Shown: piece by piece, positions 54,700 through 60,489 of the stretch
How the letters are laid out: the number at the start of each line of letters is the position of its first letter
Numbering within the stretch: position 1 is the first letter of the stretch
Assembly (NCBI GenBank): GCA_023701385.1
Contig: JAMPXC010000013.1
Span: forward strand, 1 to 64,000
Source: Pseudobdellovibrio sp.
Lineage (GTDB): Bacteria > Bdellovibrionota > Bdellovibrionia > Bdellovibrionales > Bdellovibrionaceae
DNA length: 64,000 nucleotides
Reading direction: 5' to 3'
The notes under the pieces: model-generated
Database searches by the model: none
The model's input: the letters and a program-made list of their open reading frames with translations, nothing else
Told to the model about the DNA's origin: nothing
Translations under genes and position numbers: made by a program

Positions 54700-54880
54700 A
54701 CAATGACTATAGGTACAATAAGAAGACCAGACCTAAATCCCCTAATTTAGACCCTAAATTAAAAACTGTTACCAAATCTGTCACTAGGACCAGAATTGTT
54801 TCATTCAGCCCTGCCGTAAAATGACCGATAAAGTTTTGTTATTAGAAAAATTTACTAAGACAACAAAGGGAGACTTTTTA

Positions 54881-56395
54881 ATGAGACTGATCAAACTCAT
54901 CACCAGCTTTGCATTGCTATTCACATTTTCATGTCAATCACCATGGAAACAAGACGAAACAAGAACCGTGGCGCAATACGAACACGAAGACGAAGAGCAA
55001 AAACACGCCAACACTTTTGAAAAATTGATGCAAGCTCCGACCGACGCAGAAAGATCTCGTAATTTTGCGAACTACCTTGATCGCCAAAGAAGCTTCTACT
55101 ATGTGGCCCAACAGCTACTTTTTGACTTCGATGCCCGCTTAGATGTGATCTACAACAAAACACAAAATGGCGAACAATTAACTGACGAAGACATTAACGA
55201 ATTTCAAAAAATTCGCGCGCAAAACCTAATTGCTTGGGAATTCTCTGAGCGCAATCTTCATGAAATGTTAGACCTTTACTACTTAGCTTTAAAACATGCT
55301 AACACTGAAGATTCTCCTTATCAAAAATCAACTCAGTGGATGGTCGCTAACGTTAAAAAATGGATTGATGAAGGCTGGAAAAAAGGCGACAAATCAGCAA
55401 TCATGAACTTAGCGCAAAACTTACATGATGTGAACGAGCAGATCAAATCAGAGTTTTCAACCAAAGTAAAAGCGCCTTCATTTAAGTCTTATCTTAACCC
55501 GTCGCAGGCTGTTTTAACAGAAGCTTACGAACGTTCAAAGTGGCTTGTTGCTAACCGCCCAAAAACACACTTAGACTCTTTCATCGAGAAAGAATGGTCT
55601 GAATATTTACAAACTCGCGTGATCGAACCTGAGCAGGACTTTGTAAATACAAAAACGGATTTCTTAAAAAATGATTTTAAATTAAAAAAAGATTTTAATT
55701 TAAAAAACTTCACTACTCCGCGCACACCGCAGGCTTTAGATGAATTATATCCAAGTCCGGATGGAAAAGGTCATGTGACTGGTAACCGCTTCCCGATGGG
55801 AAAATGGGCGATGACTTTTGATGATGGTCCAAACCCAACTCATACTCAAGGCATGGTCAATAACTTAAAAAACAACGGCGTTCACGGCACATTCTTCTGG
55901 CAAACACAAAACGTCTTGAAATACCCGGCAATTCCGCAAACGACGAGCCCGTTATATTCACGCGCTTCGCACTCTTATACGCACGCTAACTTACCAAAAC
56001 AAAGTTCAGCTGGCTTAGATAAAGAGATCAACAGAGCCGTAACTGATTTCGCTAAAATCGTTGGCGAAAAACCAACGATGTTCCGCTGCCCGTATGGTGC
56101 CTGTGGCCCTTCTGGAAGTGCCATCAGACAAATGATTGCAAAAAACAACATGTTACACATCGCTTGGAACGTTGATACATTAGACTGGCAAGATAAAAAT
56201 CCAGAATCAATTTTTCAACGCACGAAAAAGCAAATTGATTCGCTTGGTCGCGGTATCGTTTTATTCCATGATATTCATCCACAATCTGTGATCGCGTCAG
56301 ATAAAGTGATCAAGTACTTAAAATCTAAGTATAAGGTGGAACCACTTCACAAATTGATTGAAGAATCCCGCGGTAAACCATACTATACACCGTAA
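54881..56395 (+). CDS. NodB-type polysaccharide deacetylase lipoprotein
   Basis: ATG 54881, behind GGGAG, gives a 504-residue lipoprotein (lipobox TFSC, Cys18). A helical N-terminal half (about 40-280) precedes a NodB domain with TFDDGPN, SHSYTHANL, RCPYGACGPSG, WNVDTLDWQ and VLFHDIHPQ, all catalytic or metal motifs intact. It deacetylates peptidoglycan or another polysaccharide; a role in self/prey wall marking is known for Bdellovibrio but only inferred here. The next gene starts 1 nt after its stop. Confidence 0.88.
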   Translation: MRLIKLITSFALLFTFSCQSPWKQDETRTVAQYEHEDEEQKHANTFEKLMQAPTDAERSRNFANYLDRQRSFYYVAQQLLFDFDARLDVIYNKTQNGEQLTDEDINEFQKIRAQNLIAWEFSERNLHEMLDLYYLALKHANTEDSPYQKSTQWMVANVKKWIDEGWKKGDKSAIMNLAQNLHDVNEQIKSEFSTKVKAPSFKSYLNPSQAVLTEAYERSKWLVANRPKTHLDSFIEKEWSEYLQTRVIEPEQDFVNTKTDFLKNDFKLKKDFNLKNFTTPRTPQALDELYPSPDGKGHVTGNRFPMGKWAMTFDDGPNPTHTQGMVNNLKNNGVHGTFFWQTQNVLKYPAIPQTTSPLYSRASHSYTHANLPKQSSAGLDKEINRAVTDFAKIVGEKPTMFRCPYGACGPSGSAIRQMIAKNNMLHIAWNVDTLDWQDKNPESIFQRTKKQIDSLGRGIVLFHDIHPQSVIASDKVIKYLKSKYKVEPLHKLIEESRGKPYYTP

Positions 56396-56937: not shown

Positions 56938-57366
56938 TTACATACATTGGTAACCTTGAGTTTGAGATTGCGAACCACCTGGGTAAGCAATTTGACCCGA
57001 GCAGTTTGTTTGCGCACAACTTACCCAGCATCCGCCATACTGTTGGAAAGTTTGCATTTGCATGTAGTCAGAAGAACATGCGTATTGTTGACCACGGATG
57101 AAAACGAATAAGCTAGAGTTTCCGTTACATTGTTGTGAGCCGTAACCATAACCATTGTTGTACTGTTGTTGACAGTAAGTTGTAGCAACAACTTGGCCAT
57201 TTTGGTTATTGATACATTGCCCGTTGGCACCGTATGTATAGATACCATTGTTATAGGCATAGTTTGTATTAGCGTTTGTATTCTTTTTCTTGTTATCACA
57301 AGACATCACAAACGATAATGTTGTTACTAACATCGCGATTTTTAACAGTGTTACTAATGTTTTCAT
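56938..57366 (-). CDS. Asn/Gln-rich lipoprotein
   Basis: A 142-residue lipoprotein with lipobox VMSC (Cys23), then a low-complexity Asn, Gln, Gly and Tyr-rich body (KKNTNANTNYAYNNGIY; QQQYNNGYGYGSQQ) with eight or more cysteines. Such composition is seen in surface proteins of Bdellovibrio relatives. Unknown function. No neighbouring partner. Confidence 0.7.
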   Translation of the reverse strand: MKTLVTLLKIAMLVTTLSFVMSCDNKKKNTNANTNYAYNNGIYTYGANGQCINNQNGQVVATTYCQQQYNNGYGYGSQQCNGNSSLFVFIRGQQYACSSDYMQMQTFQQYGGCWVSCAQTNCSGQIAYPGGSQSQTQGYQCM

Positions 57367-57971: not shown

Positions 57972-58778
57972 CTATTCTTCAGTTGTCGTGGCCATTTTTT
58001 CTTTGATCCACTCAACTCCGTTGCTTACTTTTGAGTAAACACCGTATTTGTTAGCGCGAGCGCAACCTTCACCCCAGCTCACAACACCGATTAAAGTGTG
58101 TTTGCCGTCTTCACCGATAACAGCTAAAGGTCCACCAGAGTCACCTTGGCAAGAATCTTTACCACCAGTTTTGTAACCAGCGCATAGCATGCTGTCTTTG
58201 ATGTCGCCATCGTATGATTCTTTAGCGTTACAAGCTGTAGTGCTTACTAATGGAACCATAACTTTTTGTAACAAGTTAGGTAATGAGTAAGAACCTTCAC
58301 GAGTCGCACCCCAGCCAGCAGTCATAGACATGATTGGTGCTGCATCTGGATTTTCATCGATTGCGATTTCAGTTTCATTTAAACCGATTGGAGCAAAAGA
58401 TGAATTTTGCGATAATTTAATTAAAGCAAAGTCATTTTCCATAGTTTGAGAAGAGTACTTCTCATGAGCGATGATTTTAGCTGGTTTGATTTTTTCAACA
58501 CCGGCAGTATTTTTTTGATCTAACATACCGATCCAGATTTCATCGATAGATCCACCGCGAACGCAGTGAGCTGCAGTTAATACCCAATTTTGAGCGATTA
58601 AAGATCCGCCGCAAAAGTGGCCGTAGCTTTTTGAACGTAAAGAAACGATGTATGGAATCTCACCTTGTAGAGCATTCTCACCACCAACGATTTTTTGGTT
58701 TAATGTTGGTTTAGCGATAGCAATTGATGAAATTGCAAGCACTGCTGATACGATTAATGAATTAAGTGGTTTTAACAC
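57972..58778 (-). CDS. Trypsin-like serine protease (S1A), exported
   Basis: A 268-residue S1 protease with a signal peptide (ending AIAKP), an activation site KIVGG (residues 29-33) that suggests proenzyme processing, His71 in TAAHC, Asp116 in NDFALIKL and Ser214 in GDSGGP. Asp208, six residues before Ser214, indicates trypsin-like cleavage after Lys/Arg. Secreted trypsins are abundant in Bdellovibrio and probably digest prey protein (inference). A terminator follows. Confidence 0.93.
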   Translation of the reverse strand: MLKPLNSLIVSAVLAISSIAIAKPTLNQKIVGGENALQGEIPYIVSLRSKSYGHFCGGSLIAQNWVLTAAHCVRGGSIDEIWIGMLDQKNTAGVEKIKPAKIIAHEKYSSQTMENDFALIKLSQNSSFAPIGLNETEIAIDENPDAAPIMSMTAGWGATREGSYSLPNLLQKVMVPLVSTTACNAKESYDGDIKDSMLCAGYKTGGKDSCQGDSGGPLAVIGEDGKHTLIGVVSWGEGCARANKYGVYSKVSNGVEWIKEKMATTTEE

Positions 58779-58910: not shown

Positions 58911-59011
58911 AATGCTAGGTGAATTAAACGTAAGAGTGTGGAATTTTAGATAAAAACTAGCCCATTATCGCAAAGCGCGAGGCTTGTTTAAACTAAGAAT
59001 TAATTGTAATC

Positions 59012-59035
59012 GGCGCAGATAGACTACTGCGCCGC
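59012..59035 (-). terminator. Terminator-like hairpin overlapping the NADAR gene stop
   Basis: An 8-bp GC-rich stem (CGGCGCAG, 59012-59019 with 59028-59035) whose loop holds the TAG stop codon region of the preceding gene. Only an AT-rich tract, not a clean T run, follows on the minus strand. Confidence 0.45.
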
Positions 59036-59713
59036 TTTGTTTGATAGACCCGAACGGATCTTCATAAAAATATCGAAATATAAGTACGCAGGATCTGGAT
59101 TCGGCTGCTGTGTATGATCCGGCAAGAATTTTAAGTTACCTGTGCGTAATAATAAATTTTTGATCTCTGGATTTTGCAAGACCTTTTGTTCTGAAGCACG
59201 GTAGATAATATTGTAGTGTTCAACCTTACCCGTTTCAGTTTTGTATTCGATCTTTTTACCTTTATAGGTGATCCACTTAATACCTAACTGTTTCATGTTA
59301 GCATTAGCTGCATCACCAGCGGCTTTAGATTCAAAGCCTGACATTTTGTAAACTTGTTCGCGCGTGTAAGGCCAAACAACGTTCGGATCTTTCAAACGTT
59401 CGTCGTTTGGGCCTTCTGGATACTTCATTCCCTGCCAGAGCCCCTCAACGCTGGCGTAATGAATTCCATCCATTTCAAAATGAGCTTCAGATAAATTAGA
59501 GAAAATACCAAGTTCAGTGCGCTTAGAAAGAATAACTTCGCCTTTTGAACGATCAGCGGCTTGCGGAGTAATCTCCCAACCTTTTAATTCGCTTGGCGGA
59601 ATAAACACCCACCATTGATCAGGATAATTGTCGTTAACTTTTGAATCTTGTGCAGTCGCATGAATGCAACCACACAATAAAAGAACTGAAAGAAGGCGAA
59701 AGATATTTTTCAT
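59024..59713 (-). CDS. Exported NADAR-domain protein (YbiA-like)
   Basis: A 229-residue protein with a signal peptide that could be type I (cut near ATA-QD) or a weak lipobox (LCGC, Cys16). Residues 65-100 (GIFSNLSEAHFEMDGIHYAS, then VEGLWQGMKYPEG) and 180-195 (NPEIKNLLLRTGN) match the NADAR/YbiA N-glycosidase fold, including Glu90. NADAR enzymes release ADP-ribose from ADP-ribosylated targets and hydrolyse related N-glycosides, usually in the cytosol. The gene lies 20 bp after a secreted protease gene, in one operon. Confidence 0.7.
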   Translation of the reverse strand: MKNIFRLLSVLLLCGCIHATAQDSKVNDNYPDQWWVFIPPSELKGWEITPQAADRSKGEVILSKRTELGIFSNLSEAHFEMDGIHYASVEGLWQGMKYPEGPNDERLKDPNVVWPYTREQVYKMSGFESKAAGDAANANMKQLGIKWITYKGKKIEYKTETGKVEHYNIIYRASEQKVLQNPEIKNLLLRTGNLKFLPDHTQQPNPDPAYLYFDIFMKIRSGLSNKAAQ

Positions 59714-59733
59714 CGCTTAATCGCTTGATCTGA

Positions 59734-60489
59734 CTACTTGATATTTAATTGTTGGATAATTCTCTTCAACGGCGTGTCGTAGATGTACGTACCGTAATTT
59801 AAACCACCACCATTGCCATCTGCACGACCACCATCATGAATACCTACAACTTTTAAAGAGAAGTAGTTGATGATTGTTGCACCAGATGAACCTGGGTTTG
59901 TATCACAAATGTGGTGAATTAAAGCCGGATCGAAATCAGAGTCTTTAACTTTTTGGATTTTACAAGATTGTGACCAACGTAAAGGTAATTCTTCTGGATG
60001 AGAGAAGATCGTTACTTTTTCGCCAACTTTAGCGCGTTTGTATAAATCAGCTTTGATCGCCACTGGAGGAACTGGGCTAACTTTTAATAAAGCATAGTCC
60101 ATTTTCTCTGTTCTTTGCGCCATGATGATTTTTTCACATTTAGAAGTTAAGTAAGCTTCTTTACCTTCACGGTAACCCCATTGGATTTCATTTTCAGCGC
60201 CTGGGCAGTCTTGGTTTTCGATTGGTGTAGGACCAGCCCAAAAACAGTGACCCGCAGTCAATACATAACCATCACCGATGTGAGTTGCCGTACAACCCAT
60301 ACCTAATTTACCAAAGGCATCTACTAATTTTTTAAACTTAGCAGGTACATTTGTAGCTTCAGCGTTTACGGCGATAAGGTCATCTTTTCCAATGATTTTT
60401 TCGATATCGCTATCGGCTTTAACAGTTTGTGATCCCATCACGACTACTAAAGATAAAGCTGCTACTGATAACTTAATAAGTGCTTTCAT
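59734..60489 (-). CDS. Trypsin-fold serine protease (V8/S1-like), exported
   Basis: A 251-residue protein with a signal peptide (ending VKAD) and the triad His81 (LTAGHC), Asp131 (MDYALLKV) and Ser202 (NPGSSGATI), the glutamyl-endopeptidase-like S1B spacing. The activation site is not the classical IVGG. First gene of the operon with the exported NADAR protein. Potential target: prey proteins (inference). Confidence 0.87.
   Translation of the reverse strand: MKALIKLSVAALSLVVVMGSQTVKADSDIEKIIGKDDLIAVNAEATNVPAKFKKLVDAFGKLGMGCTATHIGDGYVLTAGHCFWAGPTPIENQDCPGAENEIQWGYREGKEAYLTSKCEKIIMAQRTEKMDYALLKVSPVPPVAIKADLYKRAKVGEKVTIFSHPEELPLRWSQSCKIQKVKDSDFDPALIHHICDTNPGSSGATIINYFSLKVVGIHDGGRADGNGGGLNYGTYIYDTPLKRIIQQLNIK

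Follow-up and report, generated by a model that had tools for sequence, protein, structure and literature searches.

The 64,000-nt stretch of Pseudobdellovibrio sp. DNA analysed here (the window) carries on its minus strand a gene for a NADAR-fold protein that begins with a signal sequence and a lipobox. By sequence comparison the protein belongs to an undescribed family whose nearest relative is phage gp30.3; the NADAR fold itself is known, and what is new is the exported setting and the subfamily. The best explanation, held at about even odds, is that the protein is an extracytoplasmic, probably lipidated NADAR hydrolase which acts, together with exported nucleases and a pyrophosphatase, on nucleotide material, ribosylated or ADP-ribosylated, that comes from digested prey. 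Its computational footing is the fold, the catalytic Glu/Lys/Asp, the kept export signal and the mark of purifying selection, together with operons of a sister clade that hold nuclease and pyrophosphatase genes; the catalytic activity, localisation, substrate and role in predation of the window protein are what we infer. A literature search, which took in little of the subscription literature, found no paper that links NADAR to Bdellovibrio or describes exported NADARs.

The gene is the sole NADAR match in its own genome. An in-frame stop precedes its ATG by one codon, so the N-terminal signal, MKNIFRLLSVLLLCGC, does not come from a mis-called start. Comparison with the nearest relative, Bdellovibrio sp. 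qaytius, indicates strong purifying selection (dN 0.05, dS 0.74, dN/dS about 0.07), and Rfam gives no match near the gene. The features of the locus are as follows:

59024..59713, minus strand: predicted exported NADAR-fold protein of the gp30.3-like subfamily (229 aa; open reading frame, profile and model)
59669..59713, minus strand: signal sequence, residues 1-15 (from sequence; feature kept in 82/82 readable homologues)
59666..59677, minus strand: lipobox L13-C-G-C16, Cys16 likely lipidated (from sequence; same in the 91% relative)
59444..59446, minus strand: Glu90 codon, aligned with catalytic Glu48 of YbiA and Glu43 of the Phytophthora NADAR
59423..59425, minus strand: Lys97 codon, aligned with catalytic Lys55 of YbiA and Lys50 of the Phytophthora NADAR
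59360..59362, minus strand: Arg118 codon, invariant (110/110), a family-specific candidate substrate-binding residue
59114..59119, minus strand: Asp199-His200 codons, third catalytic position by alignments
59734..60489, minus strand: exported Trypsin_2 serine protease (Pfam PF13365, 9.5e-12), first gene of a two-gene unit
59011..59034, no strand assigned: terminator-like hairpin overlapping the NADAR stop codon (consensus match; T-rich tail scored on the plus strand only)
57972..58778, minus strand: classical secreted trypsin (PF00089, 5e-62), probably a separate unit

The NADAR fold of the window protein is well supported by modelling. The first-pass annotation had named the protein a NADAR from a recognisable signature, and comparison of a structure model with YbiA bears this out: the AF2 model (pLDDT 91.4) has a YbiA-like fold, with structural Z scores of 12.1 to YbiA, 12.0 to 8bau (an ADP-ribose-bound Phytophthora NADAR), and 10.9 to 8bat. 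After these three solved NADARs the next, unrelated chain scores a Z of only 3.3, and Foldseek agrees. Profile alignment places phage gp30.3 nearest (1.9e-16), followed by the YbiA type (5e-12). A search of PDB sequences with the single window protein returned chance SH2 matches only. The scores against curated models all lie under their cut-offs: Pfam Phage_30_3 (PF08010) gives 9.5e-7 and 29.2 of the 36 bits of its gathering cut-off, Pfam NADAR (PF08719) gives 3e-4 and 21.5 of 35.1 bits, and TIGR02464 gives 1.2e-5. Because the protein falls under the cut-offs of both PF08719 and PF08010, it has been filed as a new subfamily of the NADAR superfamily, in neither curated family.

Phage gp30.3 (PF08010) has a pairwise identity of ~30% with the window family and shares its motifs SNF...EG.xQ...K, V...G..AK..G, and QN...L..T...H; T4 gp30.3, a member of this nearest known subfamily, strips ADP-ribose from guanine in vitro (PMC11125620). 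The phage protein, however, lacks the export signal of the window family, its N-terminal HWW...WE..PQ...SKR segment, and its Asp104/Arg106/Arg118 insert. YbiA (TIGR02464/PF08719), which is a riboflavin-intermediate N-glycosidase, has in common with the window protein its fold and the catalytic Glu and Lys; it too lacks an export signal, and it keeps Arg79, Trp89, Lys93, Asp130, and Trp133, which are absent from the window protein.

The sequence MKNIFRLLSVLLLCGC, which continues with IH, opens with a short basic n-region, goes on to a hydrophobic core, and closes with an L-C-G-C lipobox (LLLCGC), and a 91%-identical relative keeps the same signal and lipobox. An export signal, of either the lipobox or the cleavable type, is found in each of the 82 homologues that have a readable N-terminus, where a hydrophobic stretch immediately precedes the [Y/F]P..WW motif of the mature protein. 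The criterion is a simple hydrophobicity heuristic, not SignalP, and it is passed by 37-46% of nearby long ORFs, which served as the null, and by 0/11 of the NADARs of E. coli, plasmids, phages, and Phytophthora. A uniform 82/82 is hard to explain other than by export. The signal peptide or weak lipobox that had been noted earlier is thus borne out at the level of sequence; the window protein is probably a lipidated, signal-peptide-bearing lipoprotein, and it would be located outside the cytoplasm. The accompanying remark that NADARs are normally cytosolic fits the published NADARs, which act within the cell on DNA-linked ADP-ribose, but it does not hold for Bdellovibrionota, where every NADAR sampled, of both types described below, carries an export signal.

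The residues expected to carry out catalysis are also present. Conservation was counted over about 110 aligned family sequences, with one further sequence excluded as a false or truncated frame. Glu90 is invariant (110/110) and Lys97 is kept in 101/110, E90-x6-K97 being aligned with YbiA E48/K55. The third catalytic position varies among NADARs: it is Glu125 in YbiA, Asp in the BC4488 type, and His in phage gp30.3. In the window family, Asp199, which is invariant, aligns with YbiA Glu125, while the catalytic His of phage gp30.3 aligns with the adjacent His200, which is found in all but one of the ~110 sequences; either of the two may be the acting residue. NADARs mutated at the equivalent Glu, Lys, or Asp lose their function or are impaired in it (PMC11543638). 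The active-site context, about which the first-pass annotation had been cautious, is therefore in place (E90, K97, and D199/H200), and catalysis by the window protein is likely from its sequence.

Within Bdellovibrionota, to which the profile-based distribution applies, the gp30.3-like family is present in 111/369 genomes and 59/182 genera. An exact-peptide scan of genome contigs, made with the peptides of one protein, gave Bdellovibrio, Bdellovibrionaceae, Halobacteriovorax, and one unnamed bacterium only. No family member was found in phages, plasmids, or viral contigs, where the distant gp30.3 of Acinetobacter phage Acj9 was the only match, and on this ground a reading of the gene as phage or plasmid cargo was rejected. 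The family is apparently present in B. bacteriovorus HD100, in which deletion and tagging are routine.

A search with the ordinary NADAR model revealed a second exported lineage, of the YbiA type, in 39 genomes of the phylum; the loci L202-L224 of this lineage come from Bdellovibrio and Bacteriovoracia genomes. All 30 of the fetched proteins start with a signal or lipobox (29 are over the numeric threshold, and one scores 1.83), and all 30 keep the eight contacts Glu48, Lys55, Arg79, Trp89, Lys/Arg93, Glu125, Asp130, and Trp133. This lineage shares with the window family its phylum and an export signal, and differs from it in being a separate lineage that scores over the Pfam NADAR cut-off and has a full ADP-ribose pocket. 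The occurrence of the two types within Bdellovibrio is complementary: among the 24 genomes taken as this genus, 9 have the gp30.3-like type, 12 have the YbiA type, none has both, and 3 have neither. The types are interleaved on an FtsJ marker tree of Bdellovibrio, a weak phylogeny based on one marker gene. Taken together, the lack of co-occurrence and the alternation on the tree suggest that the two exported types do the same job and are interchangeable in Bdellovibrio; elsewhere in the phylum both can co-occur. (The idea that one type has taken the place of the other at a common chromosomal position in Bdellovibrio was considered and rejected, since no common flanking genes were found within about 1.5 kb.)

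A hint at function comes from the neighbours of the gene in relatives, in particular those in clade B, a sister clade in Bacteriovoracia (the class name assigned to family f12 from its Halobacteriovorax member). Genomes with two copies carry one of each clade. In clade B, 14 loci from 7 genera have an EEP nuclease gene (PF19580) directly upstream of the NADAR gene, and 8 loci from 4 genera have a gene for a type I phosphodiesterase/nucleotide pyrophosphatase (PF01663) directly downstream of it; both neighbours begin with signal-like sequences. Five loci, one of them from Halobacteriovorax, have the full triad of exported EEP nuclease, exported NADAR, and lipoprotein nucleotide pyrophosphatase, and in each of five linked genomes that were checked, the NADAR neighbour scores best of all PF01663 matches. 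One further locus has an S1/P1 nuclease upstream of NADAR. In the window's own genome, nuclease and pyrophosphatase genes are on other contigs, unlinked to NADAR. A different arrangement is seen in six Bdellovibrio loci, in all of which a class-V aminotransferase gene abuts or overlaps the downstream end of the exported NADAR gene; several of them also have a metallo-beta-lactamase-like protein transcribed divergently upstream.

The preferred reading combines these observations with what is known of predation. B. bacteriovorus breaks down the nucleic acid of its prey with secreted nucleases and draws on the prey's nucleotides for its own nucleic-acid synthesis (PMC7925074); NADARs have been proposed to act on small ADP-ribose derivatives as well (PMC9503650). 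The NADAR protein would be carried out of the cytoplasm by its signal and would probably be lipid-anchored. There, it would most likely act on nucleotide conjugates, of the ADP-ribose type or otherwise ribosylated, by cutting their N-ribosyl bond; the conjugates would presumably be released from digested prey, and the exported nucleases and nucleotide pyrophosphatase would break the products down to monomers that can be taken up. Several observations count against this explanation: the usual pyrophosphate contacts are lost and nine relatives lack Lys97 (both described below), the nuclease/pyrophosphatase operons belong to clade B, not to the clade of the window protein, and the gene is found in less than a third of the genomes of a phylum in which a predatory lifestyle is known for few. 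The earlier suggestion that a predator could use the enzyme against prey nucleotides or ADP-ribosylated targets gains plausibility from the exported neighbours in the sister clade, and otherwise it stays at the level of inference. A broader proposal, that predatory Bdellovibrionota have taken NADARs of two separate lineages into service outside the cytoplasm, for digestion or counter-defence, to strip prey nucleic acids or nucleotides of ADP-ribose, is offered tentatively and may well not hold. The export signals in two NADAR lineages, partly beside exported nucleases and pyrophosphatases, place the fold in a new setting and point to a function that can be tested. They suggest that bacterial predators must handle ADP-ribosylated or similar nucleotide conjugates of their prey; if this is true, extracytoplasmic reversal of ADP-ribosylation would be part of bacterial predation.

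The residues that line the substrate pocket bring in another candidate. In the profile alignment, the pyrophosphate contacts Arg79, Trp89, and Arg/Lys93 are without positional equivalents in the family, and with this loss ADP-ribose may not be the substrate. W34, W46, K64, R65, and R118 are new invariant or near-invariant family residues, which could form another pocket. Consequently, an exported N-glycosidase could serve in the salvage of some other small ribosylated substrate (for example, the ribosylamines of the riboflavin pathway, or another nucleoside), rather than act on ADP-ribose conjugates. The catalytic Glu/Lys/Asp would be retained for such a reaction, and YbiA is known to cleave riboflavin intermediates (PMC11543638). 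However, exported YbiA types with an intact ADP-ribose pocket appear able to stand in for the family, and the sister clade has pyrophosphatase partners; both points speak against this reading, which is considered rather unlikely.

A role in counter-defence or immunity, in which the protein would strip ADP-ribose set by prey or rival toxins (DarT-like enzymes, T6SS ART effectors) on nucleic acids or on extracytoplasmic targets of the predator, has precedents in the antitoxin roles of NADARs in the DarT1 and YarT systems (PMC11543638, PMC11125620) and in the proposal that phage gp30.3 acts in counter-defence (PMC11125620). The DarT1-associated NADAR antitoxin (BC4488 type) has the same fold, Asp at the third position, and an N-terminal extension ahead of its core, but the window protein differs from it in having an export signal and no DarT partner. 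Indeed, no DarT was found in the window's genome, beside the gene, or among the recurrent neighbours of the fetched loci, and the antitoxin reading was rejected for this reason. Conservation over a large phylum, moreover, points to metabolism more than to an arms race, and counter-defence as a whole is judged distinctly unlikely.

It is very doubtful that the protein is a catalytically dead NADAR, secreted as a lipoprotein with a binding or structural role. The loss of the usual phosphate contacts would fit such a role, as would the absence of Lys97 from nine relatives, but Glu90, Asp199, and Arg118 are invariant in 110 sequences, Lys97 remains in the other 101, and the low dN/dS speaks for a constrained protein. 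At position 97 the nine exceptions, all of clade A, carry Leu, Met, or His; they mostly cluster on the tree and retain Asp199 and His200, and their activity is possibly changed or lost. Finally, that the protein is not a NADAR or is not exported is hardly credible, for although every Pfam and NCBIfam score is under its curated cut-off and export was judged by hydrophobicity, strong structure matches are found only to NADARs, the profile alignment is highly significant, and signals were seen in all readable homologues and in none of the 11 control NADARs.

The first-pass annotation had also placed the gene in an operon with a secreted protease and noted a second trypsin-like gene next to it. 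The NADAR gene does lie 20 bp after the end of the Trypsin_2 protease gene, whose product has the His/Asp/Ser motifs (TAGHC, DYALL, PGSSG), and among the loci fetched, six further members of the window's genus show this arrangement too. It is, however, limited to that genus, and thus says little about NADAR function; the protease was rejected as a family-wide functional partner. The classical trypsin gene, for its part, is indeed next, starting 245 bp downstream of the NADAR gene, past the terminator-like hairpin. Among the fetched congeners it adjoins NADAR only in the window and in the 91% relative, and given the gap, the hairpin, and this lack of conservation, it was rejected as an operon member. 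What is left is the protease and the NADAR as a plausible two-gene operon, real but confined to one genus.

Two other reading frames of the window may be mentioned. A small, lipoprotein-like ORF at 56938-57366 (minus strand) has a very high content of Asn, Gln, Tyr, and Gly along with several cysteines, and is without a confident Pfam match. At 54821-56395 (plus strand) there is a probable exported polysaccharide-deacetylase-like protein, in which a long N-terminal region lies ahead of the TFDDGP motif.
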